Assembly: GCA_945901225.1 (NCBI GenBank)
Contig: CAMDKR010000005.1
Span: 1 to 35,804 of the forward strand
Source: Bordetella parapertussis
GTDB lineage: Bacteria > Pseudomonadota > Gammaproteobacteria > Burkholderiales > Burkholderiaceae_C
Direction of reading: 5' to 3'
Length of the DNA stretch: 35,804 bases
Positions within the stretch are counted from its first letter, which is position 1, and each line of letters begins with the position of its first letter. The translations under genes were made by a program, and so were the position numbers. The notes below the pieces were generated by a model, which searched no databases, had not been told where the DNA came from, and saw nothing but the letters and a program-made list of their open reading frames with translations. Below, piece by piece: positions 20,651 to 21,939 of this stretch.

Positions 20651-21815
20651 GGGCAGGCACCATCATGGAATCAATAAAGCGATCGAATAAATACCCAATG
20701 TCGTGCGGCCCAGGAGAAGCCTCTGGGTGCCCTTGGAAACTGAATGCTGGCTTATCCTTTAAAGCCAAACCTTGCAAACTGCCATCAAACAAACTGATGT
20801 GAGTACTACGGATATGGGAAGGTAGCGTTTTATCGTCCACCGCAAAACCATGGTTTTGACTTGTGATGCATACGCGACCATTGTCTAAATCCTTGACAGG
20901 ATGGTTGGCGCCATGGTGTCCAAATTTCATTTTGTAAGTTGACGCACCACTGGCCAAGGCCAAAATTTGATGACCTAAACAGATACCAAACAAAGGCAAC
21001 CCCGTCTGCAAAAACATCTGGGTGGCTGAGATGGCATAGCTGCACGGGCCTGGGTCACCGGGCCCATTGGACAAAAAGACGCCATGAGGTTTGAGCTTTA
21101 AAACTTCTTGAGCGGTGGTTTGGGCAGGCACCACAGTAACCCTGCAACCTCGCTCAGCCAACATGCGAAGAATATTGCGTTTAACGCCAAAATCATAAGC
21201 GACAACATGGGATTGGGGCTGGGTTTGCTGACCATAGCCAGCACCTAAGACCCACTCTGACTGACGCCATTCATAGGGATTTTTCACTGAAACTTTTTGC
21301 GCCAAATCCAGACCCGACATGGGTGGTGCGCCTTTGGCAGCAGCTACTGCAGCTTGTAAGTCATCATCCCTGACTGATGCACCTTCAGGCAGAGCCAAAA
21401 TAGCCCCGTTTTGCGAACCCTTTTCTCGCAACAACCTCGTCAGCATTCGCGTATCGATATCCGCAATGGCTACACAATTATTTTTCTTTAAATAGGAAGA
21501 CAGATTCGAATCAGCTCTGAAGTTTGAATGCGTCAGCGGTAAGTTTTTAATCACCAGTCCCGAGGTATGAACTTGAGTCGATTCATCATCTTCAGGATTG
21601 GCCCCATAGTTACCAATATGGGGGTAGGTTAAGGTCACAATTTGTTGGCAATAACTTGGGTCAGTCAAGATTTCCTGATAGCCCGTCATAGAGGTATTGA
21701 AAACCATTTCACCTACACAGGTGCCAGATTGACCGATGGAAGTACCTACAAAGACAGTGCCGTCTGCGAGCGCCAAAATGGCGGGAGGATGTTTTCCCTG
21801 AAGAGACAAAAGCAC
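20643..21815 (-). CDS. carA: Carbamoyl phosphate synthase small (glutaminase) subunit
   Basis: Hydrolyses glutamine and channels ammonia to CarB. The protein has 390 residues. The N-terminal CPSase domain starts [21 protein letters not shown], with [18 protein letters not shown]. The class I glutamine amidotransferase domain has [14 protein letters not shown], the nucleophile in FGICLGHQ (Cys279) and the His-Glu pair in [10 protein letters not shown] (His363, Glu365). The start is GTG at 21815, with GGAG six bases upstream; this gives the usual CarA N-terminus. It overlaps carB by 8 bases. The 119-base region upstream carries inverted repeats that could form a regulatory leader. Confidence 0.97.
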
Positions 21816-21939
21816 TCAGATCTCCGAGTTTGATGACGCCCTTGCTGCACGAGAGACAACTCTCAATGTCATGGTTCAAGGGGTTGGCTTTTTGTCGAGC
21901 GAAGGGCGTGCGGGGTTAGGTATGAAGTTGTTCATTATA
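21816..21939 (-). promoter_or_regulatory. carA leader with -10 box and long-range RNA stem potential
   Basis: On the minus strand a perfect TATAAT (21934-21939) overlaps the upstream methyltransferase stop; its -35 is poor (ACGAAA at 17 bases). Downstream, ACGCCCTT (21902-21909) is perfectly complementary to AAGGGCGT (21836-21843), enclosing a GAGAG-TTGT-CTCTC hairpin (21851-21864). The 3' arm ends nine bases before the carA ribosome site. A competing 5-bp pairing (GCACG 21907-21911 with CGTGC 21847-21851) uses part of the same 5' arm. No U-tract follows, so an intrinsic attenuator is not evident. A 19-codon open frame (21876-21935) also runs through the leader. Confidence 0.5.

Follow-up and report, generated by a model that had tools for sequence, protein, structure and literature searches.

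The enzyme encoded by carAB supplies two pathways, to arginine and to pyrimidines, and because it feeds both, its control, exerted by arginine and pyrimidines in other bacteria, is a classical problem. The question raised by the locus described here was whether the short gap ahead of carA holds an element through which that control might be exerted, and of what kind. The window, i.e., the whole stretch of DNA analysed, comprises 35,804 nt of Bordetella parapertussis (GCA_945901225.1, contig CAMDKR010000005.1, positions 1-35,804), and the leader is read on its minus strand. On that strand, a predicted RNA methyltransferase gene (22765-21935, its name read from its own sequence) is followed after a gap of about 120 bases by carA (21815-20643) and then by carB (20650-17396), the last two named from their protein sequences, with carA encoding the carbamoyl-phosphate synthase small subunit. 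A predicted -10 box, TATAAT (21939-21934), overlaps the TAA stop of the methyltransferase gene, and its position would place the transcription start within a conserved R-C-U-U-U region, ACTTC in the window (21928-21924). Further on are the two arms of a stem, P1, whose 5' arm ACGCCCTT (21909-21902) and 3' arm AAGGGCGT (21843-21836) are perfect 8-bp complements with 58 bases between them, just as the initial annotation had it. That annotation had also correctly placed within P1 the hairpin GAGAG-TTGT-CTCTC, our P2 (21864-21851, with GAGAG at 21864-21860, TTGT at 21859-21856 and CTCTC at 21855-21851). Ahead of P2 is an internal loop (21896-21875) containing GACAAAAAGC (21896-21887) and CCCCTTGAA (21883-21875), which are complementary to the start of carA. 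The Shine-Dalgarno GGAG (21825-21822) stands ten bases past the P1 3' arm, inside a ribosome-site (RBS) hairpin, ACTCGG-AGAT-CTGAGT (21829-21814), that also takes in the first two bases of the GTG start codon at 21815; the sequence of this hairpin was seen in the clade of the window only, the main type of relatives having CGGAGAACCCAGTG instead. Codons 1-7 of carA, GTGCTTTTGTCTCTTCAGGGA (21815-21795), hold the start codon and the conserved 3' partner of the internal loop in a third putative helix, P3.

Relatives were collected through CarA. It was matched in 68 of 84 genomes within the genus, and at family and order level the counts were 287 of 299 and 280 of 300. From these came 143 carA upstream regions (a few genomes being represented twice), of which 23 with fewer than 24 of 34 start bases alike or with a short flank were dropped, and the 120 kept were reduced to 89 at 95% identity. 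Leaders L065, L070, L077 and L078 were left out of the 85-row set behind the consensus and a count of loop CCC with coding GGG, and the same four plus L126 were left out of the arm-swap, start-region, relatives and loop-start tests. The consensus, drawn by eye, reads TATAAT-..RCUUU-...-GUACGCC-(AGCGC)-...CAAGCC..UCCC..ACAAAAGCAGCC-(P2)-GCGC..GGGCGUACCCG-...-CGGAGAACCCA-GUG-CUU-UUG-UCU-CUU-CAG-GGA, and the sub-clade that holds the window leader (L002-L006) keeps this layout, with a shorter and rearranged loop.

A perfect TATAAT was present in 101 of the 120 regions, the window copy counted, its last base lying 116-184, and usually 116-146, bases ahead of the start codon. A transcription start mapped downstream of 21902 would have cut the 5' arm from the message; the predicted box in the window puts the predicted start upstream of that position, and a scan for sigma-70 pairs found no -10 with a good -35 upstream of carA. 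The positions 6-10 past the box were nearly fixed as R-C-U-U-U among 84 leaders (purine in 84, C in 83, T in 82, T in 76 and T in 72), and this brings to mind carA P1 of E. coli, which starts GUUUGC, has three U residues, shows UTP-sensitive reiterative initiation and is also under several DNA-binding factors (PMC6245113). It is conceivable, then, that pyrimidines act on carA at initiation, by UTP-sensitive slippage or start selection at this U-run, and that the main task of the hairpin is to protect the message or to insulate the ribosome site. We consider this rather unlikely as the whole explanation: the run in the window is UU followed by C, whereas in E. coli single changes that break the run of three T abolish the effect (PMC6245113), and control in the start region leaves unexplained both the covariation of P1 and P2 and the complementarity of loop and gene start that are described below. 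The likeness to E. coli P1 thus lies in a U-run at the predicted start, and the difference is that the E. coli control acts at initiation, with no structured leader in the available part of PMC6245113. Nonetheless, the fixed R-C-U-U-U and the GUUUGC precedent make a second, transcriptional layer possible. By eye, GUUU or RCUUU runs about 7-10 bases past the -10 box were also seen in carA promoters of several families, namely L148, L154, L158, L160, L174-L176, L182 and L184.

Whether the stem is more than a chance complementarity was addressed through compensatory changes. Taken singly, the window leader has an ordinary predicted folding energy (-26.0 versus -21.43 +/- 3.19 kcal/mol shuffled, z -1.43, with 14 of 200 shuffles as good). 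Among 56 non-redundant leaders, at most 85% alike, the arms of P1 nonetheless proved matched to each other: in an alignment-free test, each leader's own arms paired at -21.05 kcal/mol and swapped arms at -18.04 (z -8.3, 0 of 2000 permutations), a z that overstates independence since the leaders share ancestry. A model-based alignment of 82 leaders had standard pairs in 85.9% of cells and changes on both sides in 18 of 19 pairs; the cells with both-side changes numbered 188, against 57.5 when shuffled and 14-52 when slid. Realignment of 84 leaders with a second model (alignment A5) gave 191 such cells against 62.0 shuffled and 35-54 slid, although the pairs showing double changes, 14 of them, did not exceed the shuffles in number (115/500). 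All leaders are akin, and shuffle statistics of this kind count one family repeatedly. With a null that keeps the tree, on 80 leaders of A5 (L105, L116, L118 and L078 left out), the summed score of the 19 pairs was 415, against 0.7 +/- 30 and a maximum of 79 in 100 simulations. Seven of the 19 pairs passed when only the structure pairs were tested, and the top five of all pairs were structure pairs. When all pairs were tested, covariation was significant for one pair only, both on A5 and on A4 (an alignment without the weak L048 and L116), where the one pair passed at E < 0.05 and a second stood at 0.05. RNAalifold on the MAFFT alignment A1 returned zero pairs, probably because that alignment set the GTACGCC and GTCGCCC types one column off; A1 was replaced by the covariance-model alignments, and as these lean towards structure, the swap test is the fairest control.

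The compensatory changes that the initial annotation had asked for were thus present in both P1 and P2, and the stem it quoted shows double changes even among the nearest relatives, namely CCCTT/AAGGG in L002, CCCTAA/TTAGGG in L005 and CCCC/GGGG in L010. Taken together, the comparisons indicate that the carA leader is a real, conserved, covarying structured RNA. The same cannot be said of the competing pairing proposed alongside the stem, in which GCACG would exchange partners to CGTGC. Both strings exist (21911-21907 and 21851-21847), and by eye their pairing is intact in the nearest relative, L003, and is interrupted by one or more mismatches in L004-L007, L010, L012, L013 and L021; a pairing not kept in close relatives was abandoned, and as an alternative pairing that between the loop and carA codons 1-7 fits better.

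The breadth of the element was examined with two covariance models. R1, trained on 15 leaders that included congeners and excluded the window, matched the window leader at E 3.4e-9, and gave weak opposite-strand matches in four leaders (E 0.0016-0.4). R2, trained on 82 leaders with the window copy included, matched it at E 1.3e-15; the genome from which the window comes had a single match. Across the family, R2 matched 130 of 299 genomes, in 65 of 141 genera, and found no match in the other 169, a count in which many matched genomes had supplied training leaders and from which stricter filters may lose weak matches. In 104 of 108 judged matches, carA followed on the same strand within 1-40 bases, 25 of the 133 in total being left unjudged for want of a listed CarA position. 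The four placed otherwise comprised one strong match, in a genome with two CarA matches, and three at E of about 0.001-0.007. An order-wide search matched 32 of 300 genomes at E <= 0.05, seven strongly and 25 weakly, and all seven strong matches, the window's own genome among them, were within its family. These matches and the compensatory changes bear out the claim that a structured leader precedes carA. Within the same family, L098, L110, L114, L125 and L144 have an MLP-type carA start and leader arms GCCC..GGGCG; on the strand of carA their matches to R2 are weak (E 3e-4 to 5e-3, in a search of a small set), the better match of L110 falling on the opposite strand, and these leaders are possibly a third variant.

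The initial annotation had suggested a comparison with Rfam, and there the leader found no counterpart: no family matched it, the sole Rfam match in the window was a tRNA, and eight leader loci gave nothing meaningful at E up to 10. Brewer et al. described, in 2021, a carA (SRC-12-1) motif as an orphan riboswitch candidate. The published account has 30 representatives, mostly Polynucleobacter, forming an extended imperfect hairpin directly before carA in Betaproteobacteria, with a promoter upstream and the hairpin reaching the RBS, and it speaks of “little covariation support” and a possible riboswitch (PMC8632094, 2021). The window leader is likewise directly upstream of carA and an extended imperfect hairpin (P1 plus P2), and as to the promoter and RBS layout it has the predicted TATAAT and the GGAG, no -10/-35 pair having been found. 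It differs from the motif in belonging to another family, in its 130 genomes and clear covariation, in an extended P1 and in a loop complementary to codons 1-7. This comparison was made with the description in the text. Polynucleobacter-type leaders were gathered by a 26-base pattern from L168/L169, which returned at least 80 records; at least 49 of the matches listed were titled Polynucleobacter, including P. necessarius, and the others bore broader MAG names. Of these records, 68 were used and cut to 15, which come from nearly one genus and amount to about a single observation. A sequence profile of our leaders aligned colinearly with 11 of the 15 over both arms and the loop, weakly (E 0.046-1.1, 8.7 to 4.3 bits) and above the best of 300 decoys (1.5 bits), and R2 did not match the Polynucleobacter leaders L167-L169 at E up to 10. 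Given the weak alignment above decoys and the lack of a covariance-model match, the window leader was taken to be probably homologous, short of proven membership; it is probably a divergent, wider and better supported version of the carA motif. Among the matches listed in a search of titles and abstracts of the open-licence literature, there was no other report on a carA leader RNA, and the available part of PMC2965389 holds nothing on carA.

What, then, might the structure do? The internal loop of the main type is antisense to the start of carA: ACAAAAGCA and UCCC lie opposite UGCUUUUGU and GGGA, in an order that would allow a single helix. The longest perfect run between loop and start averaged 6.2, against 4.3 in shuffled loops (highest of 200 shuffled means, 4.7), and the mean predicted duplex was -11.99, against -8.50 +/- 0.34 for shuffled loops (best of 300, -9.65); twelve stretches from elsewhere in the gene gave -6.20 to -9.12. 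The coding side is nearly invariant. Of the 89 non-redundant regions, 75 have GGA as codon 7 and 82 have CTT as codon 2; these figures, like those of the full-length subset that follows, are inflated because the sequences had been chosen by the similarity of the start stretch itself. In the full-length subset (43 non-redundant of 61 full-length carA genes), codon 7 was GGA in 43/43 and codon 2 CTT in 39/43, and GGC was the commonest codon in 34 of 36 other glycine columns. Third-position GC was 0.18 in the first codons of carA versus 0.72 later (14 genomes of the 56), but the first codons of carB are also AT-rich (0.32 versus 0.82), which makes low GC alone ordinary. Beyond the proposed helix, alanine codon 17 was GCA in 35 of 38 carA relatives, against their GC-rich usage.

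In the window, the predicted minimum fold contains P3 (-36.1), and the fold in which P1 is forced reaches -32.6. P1 is the predicted fold of prefixes of 90-120 bases, and from 125 bases on the alternative fold takes over. Pairing of the third start-codon base is 0.97 in the P3 fold versus 0.30 in the P1 fold, and that of codons 2-4 is 0.87 versus 0.24. In both folds, however, the first and second bases of the start codon are already paired within the RBS hairpin (0.98-1.00 and 0.91-0.94), and P3 therefore adds less there than the energies suggest. The order within the window's loop also differs, GACAAAAAGC coming before CCCC, and thus only the start part of P3 would form alongside the pairing of loop CCCC to the P1 3' arm. 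Across the 56 leaders, the nested ensemble held P1 in 43 and P3 in 7, with pseudoknots outside the scoring.

Covariation gave P3 less than it gave P1. It was not significant for the loop against codons 1-8 (z -1.3 to -1.6) or for the CCC/GGGA part (-0.5), and swap tests of the loop with the P1 3' arm, and of the 5' end, the 5' arm and the 3' arm with the coding side, were unsupportive. Loop CCC and coding GGG did co-occur (65 leaders with both, 13 with the coding side only, 3 with the loop only and 4 with neither, n = 85, Fisher p 0.027), as did codon-2 CTC with loop CAAG (4/6 versus 17/78, p 0.032); with phylogeny left in, both are suggestive only. A point against P3 is that L065 and L070, which have no hairpin, retain identical start codons. 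Both come from species of the genus to which the window belongs. With the entire hairpin lost, about 47 bases remain from TATAAT to GTG, and a promoter-like box, the RBS and codons 1-7 are kept; these leaders are, in effect, natural deletion mutants. In the Polynucleobacter set, the loop did not clearly face codons 1-8 (-3.84 versus -4.63 shuffled; for a shorter loop, -3.30 versus -2.76 +/- 0.36). It faced the ribosome-site region, at -14.0 versus -11.5 +/- 0.75 over -30..0 (0 of 300 as low), and over -24..0 was not below all shuffles.

The precedent of other bacteria might lead one to expect a different device. Pseudomonas aeruginosa carA is subject to attenuation with a leader peptide, and P. 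syringae has a small transcript, P32 (PMC4997734); the window does contain an 18-codon ORF at 21872-21816, MTLRVVSRAARASSNSEI, with an in-frame ATG at 21872, three arginine codons and a TGA stop directly before the carA GTG (TGAGTG). Of 84 leaders, 5 have such an ORF, every one of them in the clade L002-L006 to which the window belongs, and the remaining 79 lack it; the 12 bases ahead of its ATG are without a Shine-Dalgarno, and the leader is without a terminator, so a conserved leader peptide or attenuator was rejected and control through this ORF seems very improbable. Between 21600 and 22100 there were two terminator-like matches only, none of them a terminator in the leader: one is inside carA, and the other is the RBS hairpin at 21829-21814, where the opening codons of carA make up the T-rich tail. 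The initial annotation had been right, then, that this is no classical attenuator. Going by the description of the Pseudomonas system, the gene is the same and its control is likewise placed in the 5' UTR, and the difference from transcription attenuation there is that the window leader has neither terminator nor conserved leader peptide (PMC4997734). Elsewhere in the order, carA leaders seen by eye in other families (L147-L153, L155, L157-L159, L162, L164-L166, L174, L177-L179, L181, L183 and L184; for example ACGGGATAGGGGCCACCTGTCCCGTTTTTG in L159) have a promoter-like box and a GC-rich hairpin of about 10 bp, often with a T-run, tens of bases before carA, and could be transcription attenuators, perhaps comparable to that of Pseudomonas. 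Four others (L154, L175, L176 and L182) have CCGTAGCGCC..GGCGCAGCTACGG-like arms, similar in layout and other in sequence, again by eye.

In translational riboswitches, alternative leader folds hide the RBS or the start codon. The carA leader resembles them in having two alternative predicted folds, one of which lies over the initiation region, and is unlike them in that the partner strand is inside the coding region. Our preferred reading is that the leader RNA is probably a translational switch of carA, and the regulatory role near translation initiation that had been proposed from the first is supported to the extent that the leader is a probable cis-regulatory element of the gene. In one state, P1 and P2 would be formed; in the other, the internal loop would pair with the start of carA as P3 and block it, and translation initiation would be controlled by the choice. 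In the window, the two would be mutually exclusive nested folds, with loop CCCCTTG replacing the 5' arm on the 3' arm and GACAAAAAGC taking the last start-codon base and codons 2-4. In the majority of relatives, such a pairing would need a pseudoknot, with P3 added to an existing P1.

A switch needs a signal, and our guess is a small molecule from either the arginine or the pyrimidine pathway, which would make the leader a riboswitch. A bolder version, which we advance tentatively and regard as possible without being likely, is a new riboswitch class spread across the window's family, which we take to be Comamonadaceae-like; it would sense an end product of carbamoyl phosphate use, open or close the helix between the loop and the first seven codons, and so replace ArgR; arginine, ornithine, a pyrimidine nucleotide or carbamoyl phosphate itself would be the candidate signals. 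ArgR is a DNA-binding repressor, and a search of 41 genomes of the genus did not find its domain (PF01316), the control search being positive in 9 of 14 named genomes.

The hairpin could instead be bound by a protein regulator, either a repressor of translation or an RNA chaperone, that holds or melts P1 and P3. A protein of this sort would suit the long stem that, with its asymmetric and conserved internal loop, lies immediately 5' of the RBS, and the leader nearly always has one location per genome, which makes a dedicated regulator or auto-control possible. The one candidate protein sought was ArgR, and we judge this alternative unlikely. A constitutive 5' UTR element, serving mRNA stability or translation efficiency with no switch, would sit well with the loss of the hairpin in the two species of the genus. 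That too is improbable, as a conserved loop complementary to the start would reduce efficiency, and the element has matches across 65 of the 141 genera examined.

If the translational switch is taken as the working reading, the carA leader is of an ordinary kind, and what is new is its breadth, its support and the mechanism proposed for it. An orphan candidate with 30 sequences gains probable, far larger and covarying relatives, together with a concrete prediction of how it would act on carA; ligand screens gain a better aptamer model, and the mechanism could be tested with a few mutants.
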